A stretch of DNA of 64,000 bases from a virus, in IMG/VR virus record IMGVR_UViG_3300009008_000022, positions 17,459 through 81,458 of that record. The stretch is one strand, 5' to 3'. Below are positions 9,223 to 57,104 of this stretch, in pieces. Made by a program: the position numbers and the translations under genes. Every line of letters begins with the position of its first letter. Position 1 is the stretch's first letter. The notes beneath the pieces are model-generated. The model had not been told where the DNA came from and ran no database searches. It was given only the letters and a program-made list of their open reading frames with translations.

Positions 9223-9250
9223 CTGTAATTCCCCTTGGTTGTTATAACCC

Positions 9251-9279
9251 ATTATATCACAGATGTTTGCAGCAGTCAA
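9251..9279 (-). promoter_or_regulatory. Sigma70-type promoter (TTGACT-17-TATAAT)
   Basis: On the minus strand, -35 TTGACT is at 9274-9279 and a perfect -10 TATAAT at 9251-9256 with a 17-base spacer, in the short gap between two leftward genes. Transcription would start about 9244 and give the zincin gene a leader of about 22 bases containing its ribosome-binding site. Confidence 0.8.
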
Positions 9280-9299
9280 ATGCACGGTGCAGCGCCTTG

Positions 9300-9590: not shown

Positions 9591-9599
9591 GGTGCCTCC

Positions 9600-10213: not shown

Positions 10214-10535
10214 CGCCTGTGTCTCCTTGGGTGCTATTCAGCAACAGGATCCAACCAAACTGCTCGCACGCCACGCAGCAGACCACCCCAACGGGACGGC
10301 CGCCCATCCGATAGTCGAGCGTTAGCAGCTCGCCGCATTGCTCAGCTCGGCACACCGGGCACGGGTCCGCCCAGGGCGAACGGCCGGTGACGCTAACCTT
10401 GGCGCCGCCCAGCTCCGGCGGCAGAGTGACCCAATCCGGCCGATCTGCAATGACCATGGAGGGCGCTCCGATCTCCTCGGTGGCATCCATCACGATCTGG
10501 TTTGGCAGTCTCCCGCCCGTGTAAGTTTTTTTCAT
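10203..10535 (-). CDS. Zinc-ribbon hypothetical protein
   Basis: A 110 aa protein with CPVC...C and CCVAC cysteine clusters in the C-terminal half, consistent with a four-cysteine zinc ribbon. Its N-terminal half is beta-rich. Overlaps both neighbours (ATGA type). One of many small zinc-ribbon proteins in this early operon; role unknown. Confidence 0.6.
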   Translation of the reverse strand: MKKTYTGGRLPNQIVMDATEEIGAPSMVIADRPDWVTLPPELGGAKVSVTGRSPWADPCPVCRAEQCGELLTLDYRMGGRPVGVVCCVACEQFGWILLLNSTQGDTGDER

Positions 10536-10891
10536 GCTGACAACTCCTCTTTTTGGGCTTTCACCATGCGGTCAATTTCCTCGTCCAGCCCCGCGCGCAC
10601 CACGCGGCTGGCGTGATAGGTTTTGCGCAGGTAGATGCTCACCGCGAGCTGCACCGACAGCTTGTCCTCCGGCCGCCAGGGCACCATGATCACCCAATGC
10701 AGGTTGCGGGCGCGGTAGACGATCCGTGGCCGGCTGGTTTCGGACAGGCCCGTCACCAGCAGTCCGTCACCCTCAGCCAGCTCCATGCTGGTTTCGGCGC
10801 TCCAATCCTCCACAAGATCGGCCAGCCGATCCTGATTGCCGGTGACGCAGCGCAAATCAGCGGTGATCCAGTCCACCAGGCGGGGCTTCAT
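10532..10891 (-). CDS. Hypothetical protein downstream of helicase
   Basis: A 119 aa protein. The start at 10891 overlaps the stop of the helicase gene by 4 bases. Alpha/beta with a central amphipathic beta hairpin (PRIVYRARNLHWVIMV) and a helical C-terminus. No family recognised. The coupling to the helicase may reflect a shared role, but nothing in the sequence proves it. Confidence 0.6.
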   Translation of the reverse strand: MKPRLVDWITADLRCVTGNQDRLADLVEDWSAETSMELAEGDGLLVTGLSETSRPRIVYRARNLHWVIMVPWRPEDKLSVQLAVSIYLRKTYHASRVVRAGLDEEIDRMVKAQKEELSA

Positions 10892-26867: not shown

Positions 26868-26892
26868 AGTGATAAAACTGGAGGGCGCCAAA

Positions 26893-35486: not shown

Positions 35487-35655
35487 ACCGCCACCGGTTG
35501 CCCCTGCCACGCCTGGCGAGCCCACCTGGCACAAGTGCACAGCCTGTGGGGGGCTGACCCTGGACCCGCGGCCTGGCACCTACTCCTGCCCCCGATGCGA
35601 CGGTACAATGGCAGAGGTGCCCGAGGATGAGATCAACCCGCAAGCTGCCGAATAA
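35464..35655 (+). CDS. Zinc-ribbon protein preceding terminase
   Basis: A 63 aa protein with a GTG start. CTACGGLTL and CPRCDGT (zinc ribbon), acidic end, Pro-rich N-terminus. Its 3' end overlaps the terminase start by 29 bases. It may be a terminase accessory by position only. Confidence 0.55.
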   Translation: MRQQPVYRPPPVAPATPGEPTWHKCTACGGLTLDPRPGTYSCPRCDGTMAEVPEDEINPQAAE

Positions 35656-38340: not shown

Positions 38341-38381
38341 AAGGGGGGGTGCAGGGGGGGAAACCGGGAGAAGGATCCGCC

Positions 38382-41300: not shown

Positions 41301-42332
41301 CACATGAACGAGCGCGTGATCGCCGCCCTGGTGGCCGGCATGAAAGAGGGCGAGACAATCCACGCCTTTTTGAGCGGGGCACATAGCCGTGAGTTTGTGG
41401 ACGGGTTGAAGCTGGCCGGCATCATCGACCGGTACAACGAAAGCAAGTATCGCCACGTTGACGCCACGGCCGGAGCTGACAAGCAAGGGCTGCTTAACGA
41501 GGAAGGGATCATGAGGATCCAGCGCGTGCTAATCGCCTCGCTTATCCCTGATTCTCGGCTGCTCAAGCGTATGCCGAAAAACATGATCACAGCTCTGGCC
41601 GGCAGCGTGCCGCACCTGTACCGCGCCCAGGCCGCCGGTTGGGATCTGTCCGGCGCGCTGGCCGCGGCGGCGGACGCCTGGCTTGACGCGAAACACCGGG
41701 AGTACAAGACAGCCGCCGCCTACCTCAAGGCCACCGAAATGGACTACGGCGACGGCGATAACAAGATGGCGCCGTTGATGAAAGATCAGGCCGCGGAGTT
41801 TATGTTTCGGATCCTGTTCAAACCGCAGGCCACCGCGACGGCCACAAAGATGCGCGAGCTGGCAAACCGCGCGGGAATGGCGAAGCAAGCCCGAGAGGAG
41901 CAGGACAGCGGCGGCATGTTTGCCATGCTGGGCGAAACCGCGGACGCGCCAGAGCCGGAGAAGTTGACCGACGCGCTTGATACGATCTGGGGTATCACGG
42001 CAGAGGGGCGCGGCCGGCGCCAGGCGGAAAAGGACGCGGCCAGGGCGGAACAGCTCAAGGCGTACCAGGCGCGAGCCGATGAAATGGGAATGCACGTCGA
42101 GCAGTACGAGGCTTACCAGGATTGGGCCGCGGAGGACAAGAAGTGGCAGGACCGGCAGAACAAGCGCAAGCGCAAGGCGCGCAAGCCGGACCCGAGGCCG
42201 GAGAAGCCGCCGATCATCCAAGGGCTGAGAGTGGGACACCGGGAGCACAACATGGGGCTATTCCGCGAGCACGATGCGAAGCGACGGCGCGAGCAGATGA
42301 AAGACGACAGCCGGGAGCGGGAGGCAAGTTAA
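38382..42332 (+). CDS. Polyvalent protein: WYP module, TMEM65-like, ddrB-type ParB
   Basis: A 1316 aa protein, ATG with GGAGAAGG upstream. N-terminal helical domain to about 125, WYP module (164-196, GGWRRPDGRGGYEYWYPG), Gly/Pro linker, helical stretch (300-420). Residues about 433-538 match TMEM65: FGFVDN, GASIDTMI, GLGNAISDSVG and VGAIIGMCPLLVG, two membrane hairpins. A degenerate module at 592-620 (HKYLRRIRN...WRYLYKYP). Residues 805-950 are ddrB-type ParB (IPSHKPG, IVLGGNGRTM at 882-891), then its helical extension. Charged C-terminus. DdrB/ParB domains in injected virion proteins are thought to protect or process DNA. The membrane domain could aid DNA entry; this is inference. TAATG overlap with the next gene. 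Confidence 0.75.
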   Translation: MPIWLKQPPQPAPIIQANSALLTMRQAERTPPASRGEFGNMKQANSVRDVLDGLGLGMDLERALGERVEQWLACRTQVEIMERARHDLAGAVADPYVRREIMGRAMNLWLRTVQPAERAPNHGTMIIKAQAAQFAPDNRRRWGGGKPYGGQRPPLSRTVTGQPSGGGWEEVKNSAHGGWRRPDGRGGYEYWYPGQGGPGGGPGGAGGEAKPHPNEGQGKGDPKPPGVRWAPVPHHAPGTFRRPAEDHSAGGPAHASRMEAQGIASEPHRGAAEGESQGNETQGDKPAESGKDSGIPPELQAQLAQAIEAYGMDAVKKGLGSVTEAAAKAADEQYQAKAAELGKHETVQAAVKEHFGGKLRSKPSEQEVKQLAKKLGNDPEIRKLAETAMQGADGAVVDAIAQAAVDAAPKADPGLAKKLLVGAKVAAKAALPSAAFGFVDNFMLYLAGASIDTMIAAMGFGAAVVAGLGNAISDSVGEAVADKMERFLDKLPGLKEDEKDVLTPEQRQKIESKAKVAGVFVGAIIGMCPLLVGIGFGGAPAAKSERLVFAGGRLLLKSEPDPLPALDGAPELVFVMVDTEPRDGLFLVKGAGHKYLRRIRNPSPPPNWRYLYKYPTRKGLVHDDHLVEGAKFKGKHGDLEGHFEVTGVVKKKGKHVIALKHDESGKTIYVHRKDIQGMLTRYHKDAGTHKEPRKRKPRAPRAPAKSFPEPDKSKATEGTYSGELPKIGLRDTHAWEEMKGFADDEQAARELLASWDTHGQEYGLIPQPNGVMIMRRTARTGSKAVKEGASTVVAFKGDGKIERQQGEYMVMEMSELIPSHKPGSFAPDPRYPDGVQERVYHDDPNERAKVEEIARGLDPFFVINTNNDGVGGPPVITPDGIVLGGNGRTMGIMTAYTHYPESGQKYKDHLASQASDFGFSSHDIQGMSQPVLVRRVAVDANNTQKARMWARVLNEPLTQGMDPRTEEVAVAKNHMNERVIAALVAGMKEGETIHAFLSGAHSREFVDGLKLAGIIDRYNESKYRHVDATAGADKQGLLNEEGIMRIQRVLIASLIPDSRLLKRMPKNMITALAGSVPHLYRAQAAGWDLSGALAAAADAWLDAKHREYKTAAAYLKATEMDYGDGDNKMAPLMKDQAAEFMFRILFKPQATATATKMRELANRAGMAKQAREEQDSGGMFAMLGETADAPEPEKLTDALDTIWGITAEGRGRRQAEKDAARAEQLKAYQARADEMGMHVEQYEAYQDWAAEDKKWQDRQNKRKRKARKPDPRPEKPPIIQGLRVGHREHNMGLFREHDAKRRREQMKDDSREREAS

Positions 42333-44725
42333 TGGCGAAGGCAGAGAAGAAGGGCGCCGCCGCGGCCGGAGTCCGGTACGTCATGGACTGCCTGCTGGTG
42401 GAGGCCAAATTCGAGGTACAAGGGGCGGTGCACCTGTCCATGATTAAGGACCGGAGCGTGAGCGTTAAAACCTCAGAGATCGTCGCGCGCCTCAAGAAGT
42501 TCGCCCAGGCCAAGCTGGAGCTGGACCCGCGGTTTCGCGCCGGTTGGGGCAGCTCGCCAGTGACCGATGAGCAGCTACACGCAATCGTCGGGCCGTTGGT
42601 TGAAATGCGGGCCGGAAAGATCGTCAAGGGCGGTGAGCGGATCTGGTGCCAGGGAGGGCCAGCTCCGCGCCCTTTCGTTAAGGGCGAGCGGCCGTCCGGC
42701 GCAGGCTGGCAGGCCGTACCAAATACCAAATTTGGCGGGTACAGGCGCCGCGGCAAGGGCGGCAAGTGGGAGTATTGGTATCCCGAAAAGCACGCCAAGT
42801 TGGGCCATGGGTTTGAAGCTGAGCATGTGGAGCTGCGCGAAAAGCGCGACCGCGTTGCGGCCGACATAGAGCGCCGCGGCCTGGGGGTGGAGTACGAAAC
42901 GAGCCCAGGCCGGTATCTGGTTGTCATGCCGGACCCGTCGCACGCGGGCAAGGTCCGCACGCAGAGCTACGATGAGCACGGATTCTCTGGGCACCGCACC
43001 TATGACGATCTGCCAGCTCTGGCCGCGGACGTTGCCAAGTGGGAGTACAACGGGATCAAGCCAGCTCAGGCCGGCACGCTAGACAAGCTCGCCCAGGGCG
43101 AGCCATGGCGCCAGGCCGCCCTTCACCAGCAAGCGTTAAGGGAGATCGAAAGCCTGGAGAGGCAGGGGCAGGACGTGAGCGAGCTACACGCGGTCCTAGC
43201 TCGCAAAGGGTCAGAGGCGCTACTGGCGCACCTGGGCAAGTCGGAGGCGCCGCGGTTGCTCGCCCTGGGCGACCGGTTGGTCAAGGCTGGCGTTGGAGCG
43301 GAGCGGCAACAGATCATGTTTGCAGCTCGCCAGCGCAAGCAGTACCCGCCAGGTTACAAGCCGGAGCACAAGGTCAAGGGAAAGACGGTCAAGGTCCACA
43401 CTAACGGCTGGCAGGCTATCCCCAAGGGGCACAAGGGAGGCTATCGGCGCCGGACCCGCGGCGGGTGGGAGTACTGGTATCCAGACCATCACGCGCGGCC
43501 TGGGCTACACGCACCGAGCGTGGAGCCGCACGGCGGCACGTTGGCCGAAGCGGTGGAGCTGCGCGAAAAGCACGGCGTGCCGATCCATGTAAGCTGTGGC
43601 GCTGGGGTGGACAGTACCGGTTTGCTGGTAGGCATGTATCAGCAGGGGATCCGGCCGGATGCGGTTGTGTTTGCGGACGTGGGGAACGAAAACCCGCGCA
43701 CTTATATGTTCCTTCCCCACCTGGACGCATGGCTGAGATCGGTTGGCTTCCCGCCCCTAACCGTGGTGCGAAACAAGCCGACCGTTAGCGCCTCAGAAAT
43801 GGTGAGAGAGGCGCGCGGAAAGACTTACGCCACGTTGGAACAGAACGTGGTGCTGCATGAAACCCTGCCGTCAATCTCACTGGCCGGTGGCCGCGGTTGC
43901 AGCCAGAAGTGGAAACACCAGCCTCAAGAAGCCTGGGCAAACCAGCGCGAGGATTGCCAGTCGGCATGGGAGCAGGGCTTCAAGGTCACGAAGCTAATCG
44001 GCTACAGCTCTGACCCGGCGGACAAGCGCCGGCCGGATATGCCGGACGATGAGAAGTATCACTATCAGTACCCGTTGCGTGAATGGGGGTGGGATCGGGA
44101 GCGGTGCAAGAAAGAGATCGCCGCGGCCGGTATGCCCGTACCAGTCAAGAGCGCGTGCTGGTTTTGCACAGCGACCAAGCCGCACGAGCTGCGCCGCATA
44201 GTGAGCGAGTACCCCGACATCGGCCGCCGGATAATCCAGATGGAGGCCGCCGCGGAGGACAACCTACGCAAGATCCGCGGCCTGTGGGGCACACCGGTGA
44301 AGGGGGCCAGGGGCGCGCTAAAGAAGCCGGGAACAATGGCAGAGTGGATCATCGGGGAGGAGTTGCTGCCGGAGTTTAAGGGCCAGGATATTGTTGACCC
44401 GTGGTGGCGCCAATCAGGCCAGGTGACGCCCGGTAACGAGCACTTCAAGGTGGCGGACGTGATGCACCTTGTAGACGCGCCACCGCCGCCGGTGAGCCCG
44501 CTTGAGGATCTAAGCGGCCTGGCTCCGGTGGACACCGACGAGCTGCGCGAGCAGAGCAAGGCGCGAAAGCGAGGTGGTGCGGTTCAGACCAGCTTGTTTA
44601 AGAGCGCGCCCAGGGCGACGATGAGGGACGGAGATCAAAAGTTCTGGGCAGCCATGGCATTGATCCAGGCGTTTGATCAATTCGACAGCATGGGCAAGGA
44701 CGGCAAGCGGCATGGATCTGAATGA
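42332..44725 (+). CDS. Polyvalent protein with PP-loop (PAPS-reductase-like) domain
   Basis: A 797 aa protein. N-terminal unknown domain (1-115), WYP module (about 123-160, WEYWYPEKHAK), helical region, second WYP module (358-394), then a PP-loop ATP pyrophosphatase domain: SCGAGVDSTG (421-430), CSQKWKHQP, DKRRPDMPDDE, YPLREWGWD and CWFC (609-612). This resembles phosphoadenosine phosphosulphate reductase and DndC-type ATPases. Cys pairs may hold an Fe-S or zinc. It ends with QTSLF (44585-44599), the sliding-clamp consensus. Substrate is unknown; DNA sulphur modification or a nucleotide-activating step is possible. Confidence 0.75.
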   Translation: MAKAEKKGAAAAGVRYVMDCLLVEAKFEVQGAVHLSMIKDRSVSVKTSEIVARLKKFAQAKLELDPRFRAGWGSSPVTDEQLHAIVGPLVEMRAGKIVKGGERIWCQGGPAPRPFVKGERPSGAGWQAVPNTKFGGYRRRGKGGKWEYWYPEKHAKLGHGFEAEHVELREKRDRVAADIERRGLGVEYETSPGRYLVVMPDPSHAGKVRTQSYDEHGFSGHRTYDDLPALAADVAKWEYNGIKPAQAGTLDKLAQGEPWRQAALHQQALREIESLERQGQDVSELHAVLARKGSEALLAHLGKSEAPRLLALGDRLVKAGVGAERQQIMFAARQRKQYPPGYKPEHKVKGKTVKVHTNGWQAIPKGHKGGYRRRTRGGWEYWYPDHHARPGLHAPSVEPHGGTLAEAVELREKHGVPIHVSCGAGVDSTGLLVGMYQQGIRPDAVVFADVGNENPRTYMFLPHLDAWLRSVGFPPLTVVRNKPTVSASEMVREARGKTYATLEQNVVLHETLPSISLAGGRGCSQKWKHQPQEAWANQREDCQSAWEQGFKVTKLIGYSSDPADKRRPDMPDDEKYHYQYPLREWGWDRERCKKEIAAAGMPVPVKSACWFCTATKPHELRRIVSEYPDIGRRIIQMEAAAEDNLRKIRGLWGTPVKGARGALKKPGTMAEWIIGEELLPEFKGQDIVDPWWRQSGQVTPGNEHFKVADVMHLVDAPPPPVSPLEDLSGLAPVDTDELREQSKARKRGGAVQTSLFKSAPRATMRDGDQKFWAAMALIQAFDQFDSMGKDGKRHGSE

Positions 44726-47700
44726 CCTGTTACAGCGAGGGTTGAGAAAGGCGGAACAGCTCGATCTGTTTGGGCCGGAGCAACTAACCTCAGACAGAGG
44801 GCCACGAGACACCGTGAAGCCGGCCACGCCGCGCCGAGTTGGTAAGCCAGGCCGCGGCAAGCGCCGCAAGAGCAAGCGCGTTATACCGCCGCACCAGGGC
44901 CACATGACGCCACCTGGCAAGGGTTGGCAGGCTATCCCGCGGGGCAAGAAGGGCGGTTTCAGACGCAAGGGCAGCAACGGCAAGTGGGAGTACTGGTATC
45001 CCAACAGGGGAATCACTCCCAGCCCGCACCATAAAGACATTCCCGACAGGCCCGATCCGGCGAAGGATCCGAAGGGCGCGCTGGCATGGTGGGGGATGCG
45101 CCTTTATGAAGGCACCGTCAACGACGAGGGGTTTTGGCAGGACCACCGGAGGACAACCGGAGCCAGGCCGCGGGTTTACAGCTTGAGTTGGGATTATGGC
45201 CGAATGAGCCTGGCCCTGTTTGATGCAGTCGAGGGCATACCTCAACAGCAAAGGGCCGCCATTTTGGAGCCGACGCGGGAGCGAGCGCACTTCCCCCGCG
45301 ATCAGTTCACCGACATGGCCGAAAGCTATCGCCGGTTGGAGGAATACCAAGTCGCGGTGCGATTGAATGCCGAGCGCCGGCCGGCCGCCCCCGTCGAGGA
45401 CGTTGACGCCGCGGTGGACAGCCTGCAAGGGGTGGAGCCGGAGTCCGCCCAGGGCGCCGACGTGCCGCACCTGGAAGTTGAGGAGTACGACGGCCGCGAG
45501 GGCGATCCAAACCACCTTACGCGCAAGGAAACCGGCCGCGTAACGCCGCAAAGCCTGGCTCACTTAAAGGGGGCCAGGAAAGAGCACGGCTACATGCGCT
45601 GGCACGACGGCAGCGCCATTGGAGCGAAGGATCCAGGGGAATACTTCGGCAGATATACCAGGGAAAAGTGGGAGGCGTTTGTTGCCGACATTAAAGCGCG
45701 CGGCGTTCAGGATCCGGTTTTCATCGTTAGGAACCCAGAGCCAGGCACGCGGCACGATCCGGCTGGAACGTGGGTGTATGAGGGCAATCACCGCATAGCC
45801 GCGGCATTGGAGGCGGGGGTTAAAACGATCCCGGTAGAGATCCGCTACTTCGGCCACACTGAGCGCGACGGCCAGGCTGCGCCAGGGTGGGATCGTATGC
45901 CCGAGAGTGAGCCCGCCCAGGGCGAGCCACACGAGCCGGGGCCGGATACGTTTCACGGCAAACTTACGGCGCTACGGGCCGAGGCTGAAAGGCTGGACTT
46001 GCCCACGGCCGCCAGGCTGCTTAACCCGGAAGGCTGGCCCACGGACGATGAGAAGTTGGGCAGCGTGCTAATGGACGCCACCGCGGAGCTGGGCGGGTTG
46101 CTAGTAGGGGAGGATACGCCGGACAACCGCCGCCGCCGTGAGCTGCTAATCGAGGGGATCAAGGTCTGGACCAAGGATGGCGAGTACGAGCCGATCACGT
46201 CCCTGCATACCAGCCGCGAGGATCTTCAACGGCTGGGGTTTAGGACCATTGCCAAGTTCACTGATCTGAAAAAGCTGGGCTACCGTATCGTTCAGTGGGC
46301 GCGCGTGGTGGGCGAGGTGTACGGCGACAACAAGGACATGGCCGGTTGGGAGATCGTTCACGAGTATGACCCGATGCACCCCGACGCGGGCAGCGGCGCA
46401 GGGCTGGCCGGCAAGCGTGATCACAAGACGGGTGACGGGTTGGGCTATTGGGAGGCTCCAGCGCCCGGTGATGCGCCAGGGATGAGCCCCGAGGCGGTGC
46501 GCTACACGGCGCCGGCCGGACCCGCGACAAGCAAGGTCCATGAGCTGTTGACGGGGGAAGCTACGCGCTTGACGTTGCCAGGCGTAGACATGAAGGGCAC
46601 CAGCGTGCGCAAGCGCGGTGTTAATCCGGCCGATGCAATGGACCGCGGAAGGGCAGAGCGGGACAAGGCCAGGCGGGCGCAGACCAGCCTGGGGTTTGAC
46701 TACTCCGGCGACAGCCCGCACCACCAGGCAGAGCGCGCCAGGGAGCTTAGTATGGGGGCGGCCTGGGCGATCCTTAACCCGGATTTTGAACATACCTCGA
46801 CCGACGTTAAGCGCGTCCGGCAGCAGCTCGCAGATGATGCGGTTGAGCTGGCGAAGCTACAGGCCAGCGAGCCGGATAGCGAGGCAACGCGCGAGCTGGC
46901 TGAAATGCAGAAGCTCCGGCGGGCCGCGTTGCGCACGGTGAAGCCCAAAGGCAAGCGAGCCGCGGCGCTGACAGCTCGTGGGGAGAGTAAAAAAAAAGAT
47001 CCGGCCGCCGGGATTTATGAGCGGGTAGCCCAGGCATCGGGAAGTTCCGCAGCTTGGATGGTGCAAAGCAAGGCCCGCGAGGTTGCTCATATGCAGCCTG
47101 GCGACCACTTTATGAAGCCAGGCGGGATTTACGCGACCGCGGCCAAGATCACGTCAACCCATGTGATCGATACCCTGGGCAAAAAGCACACGCTGGCGTC
47201 CCTGTTTGGGCTGAAGCTGAAGGATAAGGATCTGGTAACGCTGGCCCTGGCGGAAGGCGCCAAAGAGCCGCCGCCCAAGCGCGGACCAAACCCGGATTGG
47301 GTAGCCGGCTGGGAGCGCATGAAGCCAGGCGACAGCTTCACCTTGCCAGCCGATCCGCGAGGGCTGAGCTACCACGGGCCAGTGTTGGCCGGAGCGCGCG
47401 AGTACAAGGTTACAAGGCGGGTGGGAGATCGGACCTTTGAGGTGGAATTTCAGCACCCGGAAGGGCCAATAACCGAGGCCGAAGCCAGGGCGGCGCATGT
47501 AGACCACAAGGGGCGCCCGCGCGGGAACAGCGGCCTGGCCTACCATGGGCAGAAGTTCCGAGCTGAGATCAGCCGTTACCATGATGGATCGTGGGGCGTT
47601 GATCTCCTCGACCCTAACCCCACGTCTTACATTTCAGCTCACCCGGACGGCGGTGGAGCGGCGCCCACTGAGCAGAACAATGGAGGGCACGAGGGGATCG

Positions 47701-49601
47701 AAGTGGACCCGGTGATTCATCATCGGTCGGCGCCGATGCTGCGCGCCATGGCCGGACAGAAGGCCAAAATGCCGGAGCCGGGAAGCATCACCGTCAACCT
47801 GGCAGAGCTGGCGAAGAAAACCGGAGCAGACTACCACGACAACCTAACCCTGGCGGCCAGCGTTGCTCAGGCTTTCTTGACGGGTAGCGACAACCTGCCC
47901 GTGATCCTGCCGATGCTGATTAAGCATGTGAAAAAGGATCAGGCCGCGATTGATGAAGGCCGGGAGAAGTGGGACAGCCTGCCCGCGGCGCTCAAATACG
48001 ACTACGCCAAGATGGCAGAGTTGCACGAGCGGCGCCGATCCGTACTGGATCAGGTTGAACCAGGGTGGGACCGTATGCCGGACAGCGAGGGCGGCGAAAG
48101 CCCTGGCGACAAGATGATGCGCATGACGCGCGAGGGTCCGAAGCTCACCGCGGAGGGGCTGTCTCCCGGCGGGCCGGAGCCAGCGCCGGCCGAGGTGGAG
48201 GCGAAACGCAAGGCGCTGCTAGACCGCGCGAAGGATCTGGAGCGGCGCTCTGACAGAGAGTTTGAGCAGGCGCGCGGCATAATCCAGCACCATACCGGGC
48301 AGCCTATCCAGGCGAGCGGGCACCATTCCAGGGGCCGGCACATGCGCGAGCTGGAGCGGCACGACGAGAAAGCCGCCCGAGCAATTCGGACGCAGAAGCA
48401 GGCCGAAGCTCTACGCGCCCGCGCTGAGCGGGTGGAGGATGAGCTGCGCGGTGCGCGCAAGGCGTCCGCCGGCAAGCCGGAGGCCAGCGGCGACAGATGG
48501 ATCCGCCTGGGCGAAGGGACCACGCGCCGGCAAGCCATGCGGGCAGCTCGCAAGGGCGACTTTGGACCGCCGGTGGGCAGGCAGGTTCAAAACGCGATCT
48601 GCATTGCCCTGGACGTAAACGGCCGGTGGTGGGTTGGGGAGCGCGGCACCTTGGAGGGCGGCAGCTCCGGCGGACACCCGCTTAGGCTTATCGCCTATAC
48701 AACGCCGAAGAAGGGCGCGAAGTGGGAGCCCACGGTGGGCAAGTATTCCGCCCGATCAATGGACGAGGCAGAGGAAACCGCCCGCAGTTATTTTGCCAGC
48801 CTGGCAGACGGCACCCGAGAGGTGACGATACCGGACAGCGACAAGATCAATCAGCCGCCGATAGACCTGGAGCACGACGGGTGGACCGCGGAGTCATGGC
48901 AGGCGTTCCGCCAGGGCGAGCTGGACGGCCAAGCCGAAGCGAAGCGGAAAGCAGAGGCAGAGCGCCAGGCCAGGGTTGAGGCGCAGGAGCGGCGAGAGGC
49001 CGAGGCAAGAGCCAAGCGCGAAGCGGAGGTTAAAAAGCGACAGCAGGAACAGGAGCGCAAGCGCCAGAAGCGGGTTGAGTCCGGCAAGCCAGCGCGGGCA
49101 TTGTGGGAGGGATTGCAGCCTGGCGATAAGTTCCAGTTTCCCCCCATGGGCGCCTATGGGGACTATGACCCGCACGTTTACGTTGTGAAAGCGGTGGGCC
49201 GAAGTGAGATAAGCGGGGAGCCGGAGATCGTTATCCGGCGGCACCGCGCCCGTAAAACCATGACGGCCACGATGGATGAGTTTGGGCATGTTTCCGCCAT
49301 TCCCGAGGGAAAGCAGAGCTGGCTGAGCCGAAGCCTGGGCAGGCCGGAGCCGTTTGAAAAGCCGAAGCCCGAGCCGGCCGGCACCATGGGGCCAGGCGCG
49401 CACCCTTACACCGCGGAGCTGCAAGCCAAACTGAAAGAGCTGGAGGCAATCTATCAAAAGCACAAGATCAAGGGGCCGAAGGCCGACCGCGTTATGGCGG
49501 CGTTTCGCGAGGTGGTGGTGGAGGTGTCTAACCTTCCGGCCGACGCGGACGTGGGCACGGCCAACAGCTTTTCCACACGAGCCCCGCGGTCCAGGGCGTA
49601 A
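44712..49601 (+). CDS. Polyvalent protein with ParB-like domain and PGDxF repeats
   Basis: A 1629 aa protein, ATG at 44712 overlapping the previous stop by 14 bases. N-terminal helix with QLDLF (44757-44771), WYP module (about 67-108), then a helical part. Residues 321-383 look ParB/Srx-like (VQDPVFIVRN, YEGNHRIAAA, IPVEIRYFG). Middle contains QTSLGF (46680-46697), a hexameric clamp-type peptide. Three PGD[HSK]F repeats (about 47089, 47317, 49111) mark repeated small beta domains. PGWDRMP[ED]SE occurs twice (about 45888 and 48063). A long Arg/Glu coiled coil (48930-49080) precedes the last repeat. Ends with a TAA in frame with the next gene. Confidence 0.65.
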   Translation: MDLNDLLQRGLRKAEQLDLFGPEQLTSDRGPRDTVKPATPRRVGKPGRGKRRKSKRVIPPHQGHMTPPGKGWQAIPRGKKGGFRRKGSNGKWEYWYPNRGITPSPHHKDIPDRPDPAKDPKGALAWWGMRLYEGTVNDEGFWQDHRRTTGARPRVYSLSWDYGRMSLALFDAVEGIPQQQRAAILEPTRERAHFPRDQFTDMAESYRRLEEYQVAVRLNAERRPAAPVEDVDAAVDSLQGVEPESAQGADVPHLEVEEYDGREGDPNHLTRKETGRVTPQSLAHLKGARKEHGYMRWHDGSAIGAKDPGEYFGRYTREKWEAFVADIKARGVQDPVFIVRNPEPGTRHDPAGTWVYEGNHRIAAALEAGVKTIPVEIRYFGHTERDGQAAPGWDRMPESEPAQGEPHEPGPDTFHGKLTALRAEAERLDLPTAARLLNPEGWPTDDEKLGSVLMDATAELGGLLVGEDTPDNRRRRELLIEGIKVWTKDGEYEPITSLHTSREDLQRLGFRTIAKFTDLKKLGYRIVQWARVVGEVYGDNKDMAGWEIVHEYDPMHPDAGSGAGLAGKRDHKTGDGLGYWEAPAPGDAPGMSPEAVRYTAPAGPATSKVHELLTGEATRLTLPGVDMKGTSVRKRGVNPADAMDRGRAERDKARRAQTSLGFDYSGDSPHHQAERARELSMGAAWAILNPDFEHTSTDVKRVRQQLADDAVELAKLQASEPDSEATRELAEMQKLRRAALRTVKPKGKRAAALTARGESKKKDPAAGIYERVAQASGSSAAWMVQSKAREVAHMQPGDHFMKPGGIYATAAKITSTHVIDTLGKKHTLASLFGLKLKDKDLVTLALAEGAKEPPPKRGPNPDWVAGWERMKPGDSFTLPADPRGLSYHGPVLAGAREYKVTRRVGDRTFEVEFQHPEGPITEAEARAAHVDHKGRPRGNSGLAYHGQKFRAEISRYHDGSWGVDLLDPNPTSYISAHPDGGGAAPTEQNNGGHEGIEVDPVIHHRSAPMLRAMAGQKAKMPEPGSITVNLAELAKKTGADYHDNLTLAASVAQAFLTGSDNLPVILPMLIKHVKKDQAAIDEGREKWDSLPAALKYDYAKMAELHERRRSVLDQVEPGWDRMPDSEGGESPGDKMMRMTREGPKLTAEGLSPGGPEPAPAEVEAKRKALLDRAKDLERRSDREFEQARGIIQHHTGQPIQASGHHSRGRHMRELERHDEKAARAIRTQKQAEALRARAERVEDELRGARKASAGKPEASGDRWIRLGEGTTRRQAMRAARKGDFGPPVGRQVQNAICIALDVNGRWWVGERGTLEGGSSGGHPLRLIAYTTPKKGAKWEPTVGKYSARSMDEAEETARSYFASLADGTREVTIPDSDKINQPPIDLEHDGWTAESWQAFRQGELDGQAEAKRKAEAERQARVEAQERREAEARAKREAEVKKRQQEQERKRQKRVESGKPARALWEGLQPGDKFQFPPMGAYGDYDPHVYVVKAVGRSEISGEPEIVIRRHRARKTMTATMDEFGHVSAIPEGKQSWLSRSLGRPEPFEKPKPEPAGTMGPGAHPYTAELQAKLKELEAIYQKHKIKGPKADRVMAAFREVVVEVSNLPADADVGTANSFSTRAPRSRA

Positions 49602-49628
49602 ACGGCCGCATGGAAGATCAACGAATAC

Positions 49629-52205
49629 ATGCGCGAGCTGGCGCAGCGGCGCACGGCCGCCAAGCGCAAGGCGGCGAAGAAAGCGGCGGCGCAACGGGAG
49701 GTAGAAGGCAAGGCCACCGAGGGCACCGCGCCCGCGGAGCTGGAGAGCACCGAGCCGTCCGAGTTGATGCGCAAGCCTGCTTACAAGGCGGCGCTGGACC
49801 TTCACGAGCATGTTAGCGAGCGGCGTATCCTCGACAGCTACACGATAGAGGACTATCCGATCTCCCGGCACCACCGCGGCGCGGTCAAGGTGTGGGTACA
49901 GCACCGGCCAGGCTACGGATGGCGCCTCATGCGGCAAACCTCGAAACCCTACGGAGGGTGGGCCAAGCCGAAAAATTGGGGCACCTACTCCCACAGCCCG
50001 ATTTACATCGTGGAGCCCAAGCCAGGATCCGATGAGCGCGGGATCGTGCTGCGCATACACGAGGAGTGGCACGCTGGCGCTACGCTGAGCACCATCACGG
50101 GCACACAGGTTATGGGCTGGTCAAACGACGACAGGGGAGGCAGCAACGACAATTCGCCCGACGTGAAGCTCGCCCACGAGATCAACGCCCTGGCGCGGTC
50201 CAGGCGCGTGGCCGAAGCGGCAGAGGTGGCGCCGGAGCAGGTAGCAGCTCAACAGGCAGAGAACCAGGAGCGCGCTATCGAGGCCGTAACCAGCAAGTTT
50301 GAGCGCGGCCTGGCGGAAGCGCGTCACCGGTTGGATCAGGTGCGCGGCACGGCAGACCCGAACCGGTTGGGCAGCCAGAAACGCCGGAGCTACGAAACGG
50401 CGTTGAGGATCCTGTCAGACTACGGCGTTGACTCCAGCACGGGCGAGATCAGCTCATGGGGCAAGTTGGGCAAGTGGGCCGCCAAGCTCGCCAGGTGGAC
50501 ACCGGACGCGCCCGCGCTGCCGGATAACGTCAACGCGCCCGCCCAGGGCGACCGGCCGAAAACCGGACCCGAGCGCATGGCAGAGCTGAAACGGATGCAG
50601 GATAACAAGCCCACGCCGCGGTTGACGCCGCACCAGCGGGCCATGGGCCAGTTCAATACGCCGCACCCGATTGCCTATCGCATGGCAGAGCTGGCCGGCG
50701 TGAAGGGAAAGACGGTGCTGGACCCGACCGCGGGAGAGGGCCGGCTGTTGCAGTACGCGCGTGAGCAAGGCGCGGACAAGGCGCACGGGTTTGAGATCGA
50801 CAGCAGCTTGACCGACTACGCCAGCCAGCACGGCGTATTGCACGCCGATTTTATGAGCGTGCCAGCGGCCAAAAACCAGGCGGACGTGGTGCTGCTAAAC
50901 CCGCCGTTTACGACTCGCGGCGGGCCGGATACCGCGGGGATCATGCGCAAGGCGCTGCATGATTGCTGGACCGGCGAAGGCCGCGCGGTGGTACTTCTGC
51001 CGGCTGGCCCGAGCGGGGAGAAGTTGATCGCGCCGTACCGCGATATGGTGGTAGATGAACATGATCTAGCTGACGATGCGTTCAGGCGCGAGGGAACTAG
51101 CGTGCGGTCCAGGCTGTATGTGCTGGAGAAGGAATCAACCGCCAAGTCCGAGCGGCTGATCTTGGAGGGCGAGCCGATGGAAAAATGGGATGGCTACCTA
51201 CTTCACAAGGGGCAGCGCCGGCCACCTGGCGCCGGCTGGCAGCCTGCACCCCACAGCAAAAAGGGCTACTGGCGAAAGCGTGGCCCTGGCAACCGTTGGG
51301 TGTACTGGAATCCAGCTCACGGCGTGCACCAGGAAGGCGGCGACCTGTTTAACCGCGGTGGTACAGAGGAAGTGGGCCGGCTGAAGCCAGAGGATAGCCA
51401 GCGCGAGGCAGAGCACCACGAGGCCATGACCGAGGTTATCCAGGCGCGCGAGCTGGCGAAGCGGACCAAGGCCAGGTTTGGCAACGGCAGCCACAGTGAG
51501 CGGGTAGCCGCGGCCCTGTCGCGTGGGGATCACGAGGCGGTGACGCGCACGCATAGCGCGGAGGCGGCGCACGCTACCACCACGGCAGAGCTGGACAAGA
51601 TTAAGGGCCAGATCGCGCGGAGCCGGGACATACACCGGATCCACGAGCTGCAAGACAAAGCACGGCGGATAGCCGCGGCCGGAACGGCGCTCATGCACCA
51701 CTACGAAACCCGCCAGGCCAGCCTGTTTGACGAGGACACTTCGATCCCCGAGGTGAAGCGGCTGAGCCGCGCGGAGCTGCATGATCATTCCGAGTCGTTG
51801 ATGGAGATTGAGCGGGCTGCGCAGCGCCACCACCGCAAGGGCAACGAGGACCAGGCCACCGCGGAGATCCGGCGTTTGGCCGATGCAAAAGACAAGCTCA
51901 AGGCAGAACTGCCGAAAGGTGAGTTTCAGAAGGTTCTGGATCGGTTTCAGGAAACCGTAGCGCGCGAGCAGCGCGAGCGGTGGAAGCGGCAACGCGAAGC
52001 CGGCAAGGGCAAGCGCAAGAAGGCGCCGCCGGTGGCGGACATGAGCCAGTCGAGCCTGGCCCTGGGCGGCAAGGGAGACAAGGGCGGCCAGCGCGAGGCG
52101 AAGTTGGAGCACGGCGGAAAGAAGCCGAAGCAAGCCAGGGCAACCCAGGGCAGCCTGTTCACCGATGGCGACCTGGGCGGCACCGGCCGGTTGCCGGGGT
52201 TTTAA
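49629..52205 (+). CDS. Polyvalent protein with N6-adenine DNA methylase
   Basis: An 858 aa protein. Its frame is that of the upstream gene, separated only by TAA at 49599-49601; nine sense codons precede the ATG and no strong ribosome site exists. Basic helical N-terminus, then a beta domain (70-150). The methylase domain is about 340-510: QFNTPHPIAYRMAEL, DPTAGEG (364-370), LLNPPF (422-427). A WYP variant (WVYWNPAHGVHQ) ends near residue 570. Clamp-like peptides QASLF (51714), QSSLAL (52047) and QGSLF (52146) lie in the C-terminal coiled-coil. Likely methylates adenines in the phage DNA. Confidence 0.7.
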   Translation: MRELAQRRTAAKRKAAKKAAAQREVEGKATEGTAPAELESTEPSELMRKPAYKAALDLHEHVSERRILDSYTIEDYPISRHHRGAVKVWVQHRPGYGWRLMRQTSKPYGGWAKPKNWGTYSHSPIYIVEPKPGSDERGIVLRIHEEWHAGATLSTITGTQVMGWSNDDRGGSNDNSPDVKLAHEINALARSRRVAEAAEVAPEQVAAQQAENQERAIEAVTSKFERGLAEARHRLDQVRGTADPNRLGSQKRRSYETALRILSDYGVDSSTGEISSWGKLGKWAAKLARWTPDAPALPDNVNAPAQGDRPKTGPERMAELKRMQDNKPTPRLTPHQRAMGQFNTPHPIAYRMAELAGVKGKTVLDPTAGEGRLLQYAREQGADKAHGFEIDSSLTDYASQHGVLHADFMSVPAAKNQADVVLLNPPFTTRGGPDTAGIMRKALHDCWTGEGRAVVLLPAGPSGEKLIAPYRDMVVDEHDLADDAFRREGTSVRSRLYVLEKESTAKSERLILEGEPMEKWDGYLLHKGQRRPPGAGWQPAPHSKKGYWRKRGPGNRWVYWNPAHGVHQEGGDLFNRGGTEEVGRLKPEDSQREAEHHEAMTEVIQARELAKRTKARFGNGSHSERVAAALSRGDHEAVTRTHSAEAAHATTTAELDKIKGQIARSRDIHRIHELQDKARRIAAAGTALMHHYETRQASLFDEDTSIPEVKRLSRAELHDHSESLMEIERAAQRHHRKGNEDQATAEIRRLADAKDKLKAELPKGEFQKVLDRFQETVAREQRERWKRQREAGKGKRKKAPPVADMSQSSLALGGKGDKGGQREAKLEHGGKKPKQARATQGSLFTDGDLGGTGRLPGF

Positions 52206-55200
52206 GTGGGCCAGCAACAGCAACTTGGATTTGACTTTGGCGGCGAAAAAAAGCGCGTCAAGGTACTGAGCGCAGGCGGCGGCCTTGACTCCTGGGCAAT
52301 GTGGCTCAGGGCCAAGGCGCGCGGGGAGCTGCCGGATCTGGTTATTTTTGCGGACGTGGGAGATCCCGAGGGCAAGCACCCCGCGGAGTGGCCGAGCACC
52401 TACCAGCACTTGAGGGAGGTATTCCGGCCGGATGTTGAGGCGCAAGGCGTTGAGTTTAAGTGGCTGACCGCCGAGGACATACCCGTTCGATCCCACCGAA
52501 AGAGCTGCAAGAGTTGCGGGGAGCAGCACCCGGAGGGGTTTGACAGCCTGTATGCCTATCTCCGGCACATGCGAAACCTGCCAACTGGCTCGTCAAAAAT
52601 GTGCACCAGCGCGGGCAAGGTGGAGCGGATCGGCCAGTGGGTTGAGGACCGATACCCCGACGTAGACGAGATCGAAATGTGGATCGGGTACGGCGCAGAG
52701 GAAACCGGCCGCCTGAAGAAAAACAGGTACGCCCAGGGCCAGGGGCGGCGCGTCAACCGATACCCGTTGATTGAAGAAAAGCTCTGTCGGGAAAAAGAGC
52801 TGGTGATTGCCATGGCGAGCGGGCACCCCGTGCCGCGCAAGAGCGCGTGCGTTTACTGCCCGATGAGCAGCCGCGGTGACTTTCTCACGCTGCTTAAAGA
52901 GCAGCCCAAGATGTTCCAAATGACGCTGGACATGGAGGAAAACTCAAAGCTAACCGAAGCCCGACGCAAGCGATTGCGCTACTCCGGCACCGGCGAGCAT
53001 ATGCCGAACTTGCTTGAGTGGGTCACGAACACCGGCCGGTACGAATTTACGCCAACCGGACGCCGGACCAAGCCGTATATCTCCAGCCGAGACAAAGAGG
53101 ATTGCCCCTGTTGCGGGAACAAGAAAGCCAGCAAGGCGACAGGCTCAGACTACGCGCACGCTGGCACCGGCCGCGAGATCCCGGTTGACGTTACAGAGCT
53201 GGACGCGCCAGGGCACGTCATTGCGATCCATGTGGACAAAAAGACAGGCGAGCCATACGTCGATCACAAGCTCAATATCCCTTACATGGAGGAAGCCCAC
53301 GGCCCGATCACGCCGGAAACGCCGATCATAAACTACGGAACCAAGCCGATAGTGGGCCTGGAAACCACGTTTACGCCCCACATCCTGTACGTTGGCCCAC
53401 GGGGCGGCCGGTGGGCAGACCCGAAACACCGGATACATTGGGATCCGAAGGTGCACGGAACGGTGACAAGTCAAACCAGGCGGATAAAGAAAGCCGAGGT
53501 GATGCTCAAGGGCGGCAAGTTTCCAATCGGGACAATCCGCACCTGGCGGGACGGCAAGCGGTATAGAAAGGTCAGAGAGGGCCAGTGGCAAGAGGTAGCG
53601 CCAGCTCGCCAGGCACAGCAGCTCGATCTGTTTGCGGCCATGGATTCGCGCGTTACCGAAAAGGACCGCGAGCCGATTTGCAGCCGGCCGCCGCCGGTCA
53701 GTGTGCCACCGGAGATCAAAGACGCCCTGGACCGCGGCGGATACCTGATTATCAACAGCTCCGGCGGCAAGGACTCGCACGCGCTGACCTACGCCCTGGC
53801 GACCTGTCCCGAGCTGGCGGCCTACAAGGACCGCATGATCGTCTATCACGCGGACCTGGGCAGGGCCGAGTGGCCGGGAGCTGGTGCCAAGGCAGAGGAG
53901 ATCGCCAAGCAGTTCGGGTTGCCGTTCGTGAAGGTCAAGCGGGACGCGAGTATCAACCGGGAGACAGGCAAGCGGGAGGTGTGGGAAGGCGACATGCTAA
54001 CCCACATGGAGGAGCGGGCAGCCTGGCCTAGCATGACAACGCGAATTTGCACGTCCGCCTTAAAGACAGGCCCGATCTGGAAAGCCCTACGGCGCCGGTT
54101 TTCCAAGGAAGGCGTGCCGATTGTTTCCGCCCTGGGCGTGAGAAGGCAAGAGGGCGAAGGCGACAAGGTAAACGCGGGCAGCCGGTGGTTTGCAGAGGAG
54201 TGGCACCAGGGCGGCGACTTTGGAACAAAATCAGTCAAGGAGCCGGTGCGCCTTGAGGTGCGCGAGGTATCTCACGAGCTGGCGCCCTGGCCTAGCCCGA
54301 GCAAAAAGGATCTCCGCGCGGTGAAGCGGGGGACAGTAAACCGGTCTGTCAAGCGGGAAGCCTACGAATGGAATCCCCTTGTGGATTGGGATCTGTCGCA
54401 CGTTTGGGGGGCCACGCGCGAGTCCGGCGTGGATCGGCATTACGCCTACGATCTGGGGTCCAGCCGGTTGAGCTGCTTGTGGTGTCCGTTGTCCAGCCAG
54501 GCGGACAAGGTAGCCGCAGCCAAGGCCCACCCGGAGATATTGCGCCAGTGGCTTGACGCTGAGAACAAAATGCGCGCCACGCATGAGCAGCGCCGAGGAT
54601 TTTGGGCAGAGCACATAGACCGCGGCCAGGTTGAGGGCGGCATGGAAGTAACAGAGCCGAAAGACGGCGGTGTGCCCCTGTATGCGTTCGACGCGGCCAG
54701 AATGAGCCAGGCCGAGATCGTGGATATGAAGCGCAACGGGGGGAAGTACAGCAAGAAGCGCGGGACCGTCGAGATCCCCAAGCGATACCTCAAGCCGTTT
54801 CTGGAGTACGGCACGAAGGGCAACCAGGGCGAGAGCTTGCTTGCCTTAATGGCCCGGTTAGGCGTCACGCTGGAGAAGGCAGCCAGCGATCCGGCATTCG
54901 TGCGAGAGTTGGTCAAGCGAGCACGCGAGCACGGCCGCCAGATGGACCGCTACCAGCTCGCAGTCGAGCGGGTGATAGAGGTTAAGGACCGCGTTGCAAG
55001 GGCCAACGGCGCCACCAGAGAGCGCCTGTTGCGGCTGTATCAGCGGGAGATGGATCAGCTTGCCGGCATTGGCGCGCAGCTCAAGGGCTCGCACCCGTTC
55101 CCCTCGTCCGGCGAGGGCATAGCCAGGGAGCAGGCCGCGCGTAAGTCGCTGCTGGACCGCGGCCAGGCCGTAGCAGCTCGCATGGAGGAACGGATGGAGA

Positions 55201-57104
55201 AGGCGCGCAAGGCGCCAGAGAATCAGCTTGGGTTTGACTTTAGCAGCCATGAGCCGAAGCCGGCAGCCAAGGCAGCCAGAGCGGCCAAGCCGACCGGCGG
55301 CGAGTCGCACGCGCAGCTCTTAGGCATGGGCTGGCGCCCGATTGAGCACCCGCGGGGAGGCAAGCACGGCTACTTTAAGATCGTGGGCGGCAAGAGGCGG
55401 TATTACTACCCTGACTTTGTGCCACACGGGCACCACGGGCACCGGCCGCCGCCAACCGCCACAGACGGAGAGGAGTTGTTTAGGACCAAAGCCGCGCGCT
55501 GGTATGAGGATAAAAACGGCGTGCTGTTGGTAGTAGATCGCGATCCTTTCTATGATCCACCGCGCGGTTACGGCGTTTATCGGGCGAAGCCGATACCCCA
55601 CAAGGACACGCACCAGCTCAGACGACACCGGGGATTCTCTTTTCACCCCACGGCCGGAGAGGCGCAACACGCCCTGTCAATAAAAGCCGAGCGCGAGGGG
55701 TGGCGACACGTTCCCATGGACGAAATAAAAGAGGCGGCGGAAGCCAGGGCAAGGCCAGCGCCGAAGCCGAAGCCGAAGCCGGCGCCAGAGCCAGAGCCCC
55801 GGCAGGCCAGCCTTGCTTTTTCTCCAGGCGAAACGGTGGAGGTTGCACAGGCGACCTTTACGCCCAAGCGGGTGGGCAACACCATAGCCGCGGTGCGCGG
55901 TGAGGTGTTTCACGCCCTGGGCACGTCCGGCAATCAGTGGGAGGCGTTGATCCCGGTGGACTACGCCGATGATGGCAAGGGCGGTGCGTTCCCGGTTTAC
56001 AAGATGCCGAGCGGGTATCAGCTCGTTGACACGCACCTGAGATCGGCACACGCGGCGGGGGTGGACGGCACGAGCTGTCAGATATGCGGGACGCGGATCA
56101 AGAATGTTTGCCATATCGTGCACCACGACAAACGGATCCGGTTGGAGGTGGGCAGCGAGTGTGTTCAGAAGTTTTCCAACGCGGAAATGCCACAGCAGGC
56201 CCAGGCCGCGATCAAACTGCTCAAGATCAAGATCAAGCCGGAGGAGTTGCCCCACATTAACGAGCTGGCAGAGCGCGGCGTACCGATGGACGTGGCCGTT
56301 GTTCGCGCCAGGGCGCGCAGCGCGGCCGGCCGAGCTTGGGACAAGAAGCACAGCCCGCCCACCGCGGAGCAGGAACAGTGGTGGAGCACCATCGGCCAGG
56401 GCCAGCTAGAGGAAGCGCGCCGCGGCAAGCGTGGGGGCGGCTATGTGGCGGATCACCTGTATGAGCGGCTAATGCACCCGGCGCACGACGCACCAGGCAG
56501 CGGGCACAACGGCCTGGGCTGGCACAATTCCAGTTGGTCACGCACCAACCGCGGCGGCCGGTGGGAGTTGCACGAGGGGCTAACGCTGGCGGAAAACTAC
56601 GATGAGGCCCGCGCCGCGGCCATGGAAGCCAGAGAGGAGAAGGCCGCGATCAAGGCTTATCCCGAGCTGATCAAGTGGGCCACGATCCTGAAAGAAACCC
56701 GCGGTCACAAGCTCACCGATGCGCAGCGCGCGGAGATCCGCCAGGCGCACGACGCCGCTACAAAGTCCGGCGAAACCAGAGTGCCAGCCCAGACGGACCA
56801 TGATCGGCTAGTGGGCCTAAACGCCGTGGCAAAGCGCCGCGCCCAAGTGGCCTGGGATGATGAGCACGAATACCCGCGCCGTACCAATGAGGCCAAGGCC
56901 GCGCGAAACGCCTTGGAGGACTACTTTGAAGCGCAGGATAAGCTCCGGTCCTACACCGACTATGGCTATAGCCCGCCGGACGCCTTGAAGTATCGAGCCA
57001 GCGGCGAGTCAATCACGCGGTTTAGATACCTCGACGCGCTAGGGCCGAATGAGCGAGAATACTACCGGCAACGCTTGAAAGAGGCTGGTTTGGAGCTGAA
57101 ATGA
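52206..57104 (+). CDS. Polyvalent protein with two PP-loop domains and zinc finger
   Basis: A 1632 aa protein, GTG start directly after the previous TAA. Begins with QQQLGF (52215-52232). PP-loop domain 1: SAGGGLDS (22-29), CVYCPMSS. A small WYP variant (VGPRGGRWADP) near 53390. QLDLF at 53619-53633. PP-loop domain 2: SSGGKDS (518-524), RICTSALKTGP, CLWCPLSS, the canonical PAPS-reductase/DndC-type pattern. Then QLGFDF (55224), WYP variant (YYYPDF), QASLAF (55803) and a zinc finger CQICGTRIK...EVGSEC (about 1291-1320), known from other phage polyvalent proteins. Helical C-terminus. The two PP-loop domains differ in sequence, so they need not have the same substrate. ATGA overlap with the next gene. 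Confidence 0.75.
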   Translation: MGQQQQLGFDFGGEKKRVKVLSAGGGLDSWAMWLRAKARGELPDLVIFADVGDPEGKHPAEWPSTYQHLREVFRPDVEAQGVEFKWLTAEDIPVRSHRKSCKSCGEQHPEGFDSLYAYLRHMRNLPTGSSKMCTSAGKVERIGQWVEDRYPDVDEIEMWIGYGAEETGRLKKNRYAQGQGRRVNRYPLIEEKLCREKELVIAMASGHPVPRKSACVYCPMSSRGDFLTLLKEQPKMFQMTLDMEENSKLTEARRKRLRYSGTGEHMPNLLEWVTNTGRYEFTPTGRRTKPYISSRDKEDCPCCGNKKASKATGSDYAHAGTGREIPVDVTELDAPGHVIAIHVDKKTGEPYVDHKLNIPYMEEAHGPITPETPIINYGTKPIVGLETTFTPHILYVGPRGGRWADPKHRIHWDPKVHGTVTSQTRRIKKAEVMLKGGKFPIGTIRTWRDGKRYRKVREGQWQEVAPARQAQQLDLFAAMDSRVTEKDREPICSRPPPVSVPPEIKDALDRGGYLIINSSGGKDSHALTYALATCPELAAYKDRMIVYHADLGRAEWPGAGAKAEEIAKQFGLPFVKVKRDASINRETGKREVWEGDMLTHMEERAAWPSMTTRICTSALKTGPIWKALRRRFSKEGVPIVSALGVRRQEGEGDKVNAGSRWFAEEWHQGGDFGTKSVKEPVRLEVREVSHELAPWPSPSKKDLRAVKRGTVNRSVKREAYEWNPLVDWDLSHVWGATRESGVDRHYAYDLGSSRLSCLWCPLSSQADKVAAAKAHPEILRQWLDAENKMRATHEQRRGFWAEHIDRGQVEGGMEVTEPKDGGVPLYAFDAARMSQAEIVDMKRNGGKYSKKRGTVEIPKRYLKPFLEYGTKGNQGESLLALMARLGVTLEKAASDPAFVRELVKRAREHGRQMDRYQLAVERVIEVKDRVARANGATRERLLRLYQREMDQLAGIGAQLKGSHPFPSSGEGIAREQAARKSLLDRGQAVAARMEERMEKARKAPENQLGFDFSSHEPKPAAKAARAAKPTGGESHAQLLGMGWRPIEHPRGGKHGYFKIVGGKRRYYYPDFVPHGHHGHRPPPTATDGEELFRTKAARWYEDKNGVLLVVDRDPFYDPPRGYGVYRAKPIPHKDTHQLRRHRGFSFHPTAGEAQHALSIKAEREGWRHVPMDEIKEAAEARARPAPKPKPKPAPEPEPRQASLAFSPGETVEVAQATFTPKRVGNTIAAVRGEVFHALGTSGNQWEALIPVDYADDGKGGAFPVYKMPSGYQLVDTHLRSAHAAGVDGTSCQICGTRIKNVCHIVHHDKRIRLEVGSECVQKFSNAEMPQQAQAAIKLLKIKIKPEELPHINELAERGVPMDVAVVRARARSAAGRAWDKKHSPPTAEQEQWWSTIGQGQLEEARRGKRGGGYVADHLYERLMHPAHDAPGSGHNGLGWHNSSWSRTNRGGRWELHEGLTLAENYDEARAAAMEAREEKAAIKAYPELIKWATILKETRGHKLTDAQRAEIRQAHDAATKSGETRVPAQTDHDRLVGLNAVAKRRAQVAWDDEHEYPRRTNEAKAARNALEDYFEAQDKLRSYTDYGYSPPDALKYRASGESITRFRYLDALGPNEREYYRQRLKEAGLELK

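Follow-up and report, generated by a model that had tools for sequence, protein, structure and literature searches.

What would a phage do with three divergent PP-loop domains, of the kind often annotated as PAPS reductases, in the giant proteins of a single locus? The question arises from a virus record of 81,458 bp, of which we analyzed positions 17459-81458 (64,000 nucleotides, G+C 63.2%; hereafter the window). Six very large genes follow one another on the same strand, at 38349-63727 of the window, downstream of the terminase gene (Table 1). The whole record begins within the major head gene (L004:42-323, phrog_752), so the six-gene run probably lies among the head genes, part of this region being missing from the record. 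No near DNA match to 38349-63000 was found among 50,697 phages.

Three PP-loop domains in a run of giant proteins

The first-pass annotation had described three PP-loop domains in one locus, each with a cysteine pair further on. The motifs are all present, in frame, in the translations, and a cysteine pair does follow each of them. The three domains are real, with the correction that they lie in two proteins rather than three: domain A in P0003, and domains B and C together in P0004. The ORFs that hold them are open, with a coding-type GC content at the third codon position, and each domain has an additional conserved Cys accompanied by a Lys. We assigned A and B to class I (weak SspD matches) and C to class II (BrxP/PF01507-like). 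A, B and C matched phrog_424 separately in a search of the whole 81,458-bp record, and the B/C protein matched this family in two stretches (8.9e-49); among the three domains, only C passed the Pfam threshold of PF01507. Sequence searches of the PDB with A, B or C alone gave nothing credible, and the class I profile gave nothing at 0.01. The top structural matches of the predicted models of A and C were (P)APS reductases, NcsA, TtuA, LarE, TilS and GMP synthetase. More precisely, the A model matched the yeast PAPS reductase 2oq2_D (Z 12.5, rmsd 3.8, 184 aligned) and NcsA (Z 11.6, rmsd 3.0, 165 aligned), and the C model matched NcsA 6scy_A (Z 13.9, rmsd 5.9, 196 aligned). By motif, A, B and C are PP-loop ATP pyrophosphatases, with a HUP-type fold where modelled (A and C); the modelled fold settles the superfamily, not the substrate.

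Table 1. Positions of the features discussed in the text, numbered from the first nucleotide of the window
Feature	Position	Strand	Matches and remarks
Phage DNA polymerase processivity factor, sliding-clamp homologue	26869-27978	+	phrog_947 1.2e-24, full length
Terminase large subunit	35627-37393	+	phrog_38 5.6e-54; directly 5' of the polyvalent gene run
P0001, polyvalent-type protein: module, TMEM65-like stretch (39666-39974), DdrB-like ParB domain (40785-41189)	38349-42332	+	PF18763 3.9e-21, PF10507 3.7e-16
P0003, 798 aa: two GW..YWYP modules and domain A	42332-44725	+	
PP-loop domain A, class I	43565-44278	+	SCGAGVDST 43592-43618, CSQKWK 43898-43915, CWFC 44156-44167; phrog_424 1e-25; PADLOC SspD 1.3e-7; AF2 pLDDT 87, pTM 0.87
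P0005, polyvalent-type protein: module, second ParB-like domain (45654-45845), DUF3560 (48198-48551)	44673-49601	+	phrog_4715 6.8e-7; PF12083 2.7e-6
NPPF-type DNA methylase (about 50634-51155) and one module	49629-52205	+	phrog_9133 7.8e-19, phrog_6263 3.2e-8, PADLOC mad2 3e-14
P0004, 1632 aa: domains B and C, one module, C-rich stretch near residue 1291	52206-57104	+	
PP-loop domain B, divergent class I (Ib)	52248-53126	+	SAGGGLDS 52269-52292, CTSAGK 52602-52619, CVYC 52848-52859; phrog_424; PADLOC SspD 7.5e-13; tree
PP-loop domain C, class II	53694-54605	+	SSGGKDS 53757-53777, CTSALK 54048-54065, CLWC 54474-54485; PF01507 5.7e-6; PADLOC BrxP 3.3e-9; AF2 pLDDT 77.7, pTM 0.79
2208-aa protein with Strawberry-notch/SNF2-type helicase (about 58580-60508)	57101-63727	+	PF13872 8.1e-14, PF13871 4e-11
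GW....GGYRRR....YWYP module copies	38868-38960, 42692-42784, 43403-43483, 44913-45002, 51225-51314, 55323-55412, 61403-61486		
QTSLF, clamp-binding-like	44585-44599	+	after domain A
QLDLF, clamp-binding-like	44757-44771	+	
QASLF, clamp-binding-like	51714-51728	+	then QGSLF at 52146-52160
QLGFDF, clamp-binding-like	52221-52238	+	just before domain B
QLDLF, clamp-binding-like	53619-53633	+	just before domain C; QLGLF kept at this place in L178/L179
QLGLF, clamp-binding-like	57158-57172	+	

A methylase and helicases do stand beside the PP-loop domains, as the first-pass annotation had noted in proposing a defense countermeasure, and ParB domains add to this counter-defense setting. Disparate domains, two or more per polypeptide, are joined in P0001 (TMEM65-like and DdrB-ParB), in P0005 (ParB-like and DUF3560) and in P0004 (two PP-loop lineages). 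DdrB-ParB, methylase and SWI2/SNF2 domains are described as hubs of the polyvalent proteins of phages (Iyer et al. 2017, PMC5512222). The neighbors found here (DdrB-ParB, a second ParB, the methylase and the Strawberry-notch helicase), together with the late-gene position, 3' of the terminase in a record that starts in the major head gene and with a relative next to a portal gene (see below), led us to consider the six products as polyvalent proteins. A zincin-like MPTase (PF18818), common but not universal in such proteins, had no match in the six. All six carry the GW....GGYRRR....YWYP module of about 30-35 residues, in seven copies altogether, which may serve as a tag for docking or for targeting to the head; outside the six proteins, the module was found only in L178/L179 among the loci compared, one extra match at E 0.75 not being credible. 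Gene order and the architecture of the relative suggest that these polyvalent-type giants are probably delivered with the phage DNA in the virion. As side observations, the stretch of P0001 that resembles TMEM65 is of membrane type and is embedded in the polyvalent-type protein, and a second SNF2 helicase is encoded on the minus strand (10888-12948), related to the ZorD, DrmD and DpdE models and with relatives in loci L244 and L161.

Family placement and conserved residues

We gathered relatives from phages, plasmids, GTDB genomes (best 80 of 341) and IMG/VR (best 80 of 524 and best 80 of 306), and drew reference DndC, SspD, CysH, CysD and BrxP proteins from genomes. Scans of viral contigs with single proteins gave no relative, whereas alignment searches did. 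The tree was a quick one, with SH-aLRT support only, on 73 of 176 rows; DndC_L261, near-duplicates and the remainder of a random sub-sampling were left out. Domain C grouped with its L178 homologue (support 100), A with L018 (85) and B with L150_8944 and L271 (82). The placement proposed by the first-pass annotation puts A, B and C outside the DndC (87) and SspD (99) reference clades, CysH also forming its own group (94). Support is shallow, with 20 of the 70 inner branches drawn open, and BrxP is represented by a single partial row. Class I is not one clade (4 changes), class I and CysD counts being spoiled by a CysD row (L288) with a very long branch, probably in a wrong frame. Given their separate positions in this tree, A, B and C look like three old, separate lineages rather than recent copies.

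The profile scores are in line with this placement. Against the SspD profile, A and B reached 29.6 and 46.8 bits, versus 307-456 bits for SspD proteins; DndC proteins also match this profile at 39-49 bits, hence the SspD match of A and B shows only the branch to which they belong. The DndC model (TIGR03183) had no match at 0.01 in an NCBIfam scan of P0003 and P0004. We thus rejected a DndC identity (no model match, position outside the DndC clade) and an SspD identity (scores far under those of SspD proteins, exclusion from the SspD clade). The kinship with DndC-like sulfur-transfer enzymes that had been suggested stands at the level of the common DndC/SspD branch, whose bacterial members insert sulfur into DNA, in a divergent form; membership of either family does not. 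No DUF3440 (IbrA-type) was found among 143 genomes, so IbrA could not be placed.

Class I (25/25 rows), class II (20/20), DndC (4/4) and SspD (8/8) all retain the PP-loop Ser, the first Cys, the Lys and the two cysteines of CxxC. The PP-loop Asp is kept in every class II, DndC and SspD row (20/20, 4/4 and 8/8), and in class I the position is D, N or Q in 18, 6 and 1 rows; both D and S are present in A, B and C. Since all three keep the C...K...CxxC set of DndC and SspD, the domains are not degenerate, and the dead, degenerate homologues feared in the first-pass annotation are not what the sequences look like: judged by these and the catalytic positions, A, B and C are intact. In the CysH references the PP-loop D is lost, the S is mostly lost and the cysteines are present in only 4 of 8. 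Their catalytic ECGLH, found in 8/8, is absent from all class I (0/175) and class II (0/118) ORFs, the window's own two ORFs included. We therefore rejected a CysH identity. The absence of ECGLH, the conserved D and S and the three cysteines argue against a classical reductase and for an ATP-pyrophosphatase chemistry with a three-cysteine site. The active site of DndC has been described as a 4Fe-4S center held by three cysteines (PMC10853773), and three cysteines occupy the [4Fe-4S] cluster positions in all rows of both classes, where such a cluster may be bound.

Relatives, gene pairs and clamp-binding-like motifs

The closest relative is L179, whose C-like domain has a near-identical copy in L178 that is 59% identical to C. 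In L179, a portal gene (3682-5355, phrog_15361 2.8e-52) lies upstream of the gene of an 1881-aa protein (6009-11651), which has a class II domain at residues 670-921 and a Mom-like DNA-modification domain at 1411-1536 (phrog_1384 5.7e-12). Between them, residues 1086-1204 match, by PHROG, a domain common to minor head and DarB-like proteins. This domain bears the motif DGDHLDVF, which we take to be a pyrophosphatase signature; the PPase-like identity is our assumption, made from this motif and the shared-domain PHROG match rather than from an InPase model. A PPase domain behind a PPi-releasing enzyme and a Mom-like domain in the same chain both fit a DNA modification delivered from the head, and the L179 fusion is the strongest single link between these PP-loop domains and DNA. 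We also read the first 450 residues of this protein, by eye, as MuF-like and C39-peptidase-like, which neither PHROGs nor the PDB confirmed.

Class I and class II genes recur together. Both are present at 24 of 80 genome loci (best 80 of 341) and at 9 of 160 viral loci (best 80 each of 524 and 306). Counts from a further set of records, selected in part for carrying such pairs, do not enter these rates. Across 39 genomes totalling about 202.6 Mb, 17 of the 35 class II matches fell inside 40 class I loci (40 of the 80 fetched), versus 0.09 expected, an excess that is inflated by near-copies (L072, L073, L077, L079, L082 and L087; L041-L043; L093/L097; L031/L059, among others) and that remains far from chance after a rough collapse of these copies. 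Most of the fetched relatives are single genes with no partner within the fetched stretch. We scanned representatives of ten gene clusters found beside the pairs: six matched ArdC with MPTase, ParB, SSB, YAcAr, Strawberry-notch helicase and DpdA, respectively. Of the remaining four, three matched nothing and one gave just an AAA match below the threshold. B-type genes adjoin ArdC, near ParB, on a rhizobial conjugative plasmid; among plasmid records, 61/146 of the B-like, 67/142 of the A-like and 45/305 of the C-like ones are typed conjugative. The DpdA-like protein occurs beside class I/II pairs in L062 (1838-2965, PF23859 2.8e-14) and, by BLAST cluster, in L027, L039 and L081. Streptomyces phage Gilgamesh has, two genes past its class II gene, one that is named queuine tRNA-ribosyltransferase. 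Pseudoalteromonas phage KB12-38 (L005:9016-16642) has two PP-loop genes, one of each class, with methylases and an annotated DndB, all as separate genes of one cluster.

Motifs of the QLxLF type bind sliding clamps, and such motifs are enriched here. The pentamer Q.[SDGA]LF occurs 6 times in the six proteins (8,465 aa), versus 0.14 in shuffles, and 3 times in the 76 remaining proteins that the record encodes (17,818 aa). With a wider pattern, Q.[SDGATM][LMF]F, independent relatives had matches at 11/170 class I termini (0.47 expected), at 1/84 class II termini (0.16 expected, little enrichment) and at 10/926 termini of neighboring genes (4.76 expected). The difference between class I and the neighboring genes (p = 8e-5) is exploratory, because the pattern was widened after the window was seen. 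These motifs predict that the polyvalent-type proteins may bind a clamp. The window encodes a clamp homologue of its own, which had no NCBIfam match and no PDB relative by sequence.

A candidate function and known systems

DNA modification is the use best supported by these data, and sulfur is the likeliest group predicted to be added. Our leading explanation, to which we give a little less than an even chance, is a clamp-tethered, probably virion-delivered modification of DNA, probably a thiolation, by three PP-loop domains housed in polyvalent proteins. The late-encoded giants would most likely be carried in the virion. Each PP-loop domain would adenylate its target at the expense of ATP, with release of PPi, and the sulfur would come from a [4Fe-4S] cluster on the first Cys and the CxxC pair, fed by a host cysteine desulfurase, or from the cysteines themselves. 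Classes I and II would act as a pair, and the QLxLF motifs would dock the proteins on the sliding clamp of the host or of the phage. With the methylase, ParB and helicase domains alongside, phage DNA would in this way be marked against nucleases of the host as it enters and as it is replicated. A further-reaching proposal, which we consider rather doubtful, sets the locus apart from both Dnd and Ssp as a new system of DNA modification delivered by the virion. Two different PP-loop enzymes, or three in the present phage, would form a clamp-docked relay that thiolates phage DNA, or marks it in some other way, when it enters the cell and just after its replication. The class I/II pair is also found in other phages and on conjugative elements, encoded there by separate genes.

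The phosphorothioation-like modification suggested by the first-pass annotation gains from the DndC/SspD branch and the intact residues. Phosphorothioation as such is unproven, since no cysteine desulfurase (Aminotran_5) was found in the incomplete record, no DndD/E, SspB/C or other Dnd/Ssp partner was found among the PADLOC families listed (65 other proteins, 25 of 45 families), and the domains are neither DndC nor SspD. In its strict form, A and B would act as SspD and C as DndC or BrxP; IscS would come from the host, and DndD/E or SspB/C would be replaced by proteins of either host or phage. The SspD and BrxP profile matches (Table 1) and the annotated DndB with two such genes in the Pseudoalteromonas phage point this way, and DndA can be replaced by IscS in vitro (PMC10853773). 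However, the score of B on the SspD profile is one that DndC proteins also reach, no partner ATPase or DNA-recognition protein was identified, and we regard strict phosphorothioation as unlikely. We judge no more favorably the thiolation or repair of tRNA or mRNA, as by TtuA, NcsA, TtcA or TilS, to counter tRNA-cutting defenses: the strong fold matches to NcsA, TtuA and TilS and a match of the class II profile to the N-terminal part of TtuA (6.1e-7) speak for it, whereas no tRNA gene was found in the window, no RNA-binding domain is among the family matches, and the partners (methylase, ParB, helicase, Mom-like, DpdA) are all DNA proteins.

The recurrence of ParB partners is also consistent with PP-loop and ParB domains that adenylate or destroy nucleotides of host defense, nucleotide targets having been suggested for DdrB-ParB and InPase domains (Iyer 2017, PMC5512222). 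Such nucleotide or signal processing leaves the shared three-cysteine set and the Mom-like fusion unexplained, and we think it quite improbable. An auxiliary role in sulfate assimilation, as a PAPS or APS reductase, is what the name of phrog_424 and the annotation of many phage genes imply. Its classical mechanism is contradicted by the missing catalytic cysteine, CysH itself lacks the PP-loop D-S kept here, and this role seems to us very improbable.

Homologues of PAPS reductase have been described in mobile elements, BREX, type IV-B CRISPR and phosphorothioation, with their role left open, and those of phages were said in 2024 to "deserve further investigation" (PMC11437467); the role of the CysH-like protein of type IV-B systems was also left open (PMC8175902). 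Among the papers found, few of them from subscription journals, none connects these PP-loop domains with a clamp or with polyvalent proteins, and two that contain both terms use them separately. The two classes, paired here, are unconnected in this literature.

The locus shares with known polyvalent proteins the giant, multidomain, late-context architecture and the DdrB-ParB, methylase and SWI2/SNF2-type helicase domains, and a relative shows a link to the portal and to domains of Mom-like and PPase-signature type. It differs in that the main text of the founding paper contains none of "PP-loop", "PAPS" or "phosphoadenosine" (PMC5512222), and in having the recurrent GW..YWYP module and no MPTase match in the six proteins. 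With SspD and DndC, A, B and C share the PP-loop and the C...K and CxxC positions, and A and B have weak profile matches to SspD, as C has to BrxP. In contrast to SspD, DndC and BrxP, they fall in separate clades, have no identified Dnd or Ssp partners and are fused into polyvalent-type proteins. The PDB entry 21fy_C (PptA) aligns with the class II profile along almost all of its length (1.8e-4) and keeps CT..LK and CxxC, but has an altered PP-loop. Finally, the phage "PAPS reductases" (phrog_424; for example in KB12-38, PaV-LD and Dolphis) are homologous to these domains, with about 23-39% identity to A or C in annotated phages, but among the records compared are mostly single genes of a few hundred amino acids, whereas here three domains lie in two polyvalent-type proteins. 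Such phage genes are widespread and often counted among sulfur-metabolism genes; our data argue against a classical reductase chemistry and set them beside DNA-modifying and anti-restriction functions.
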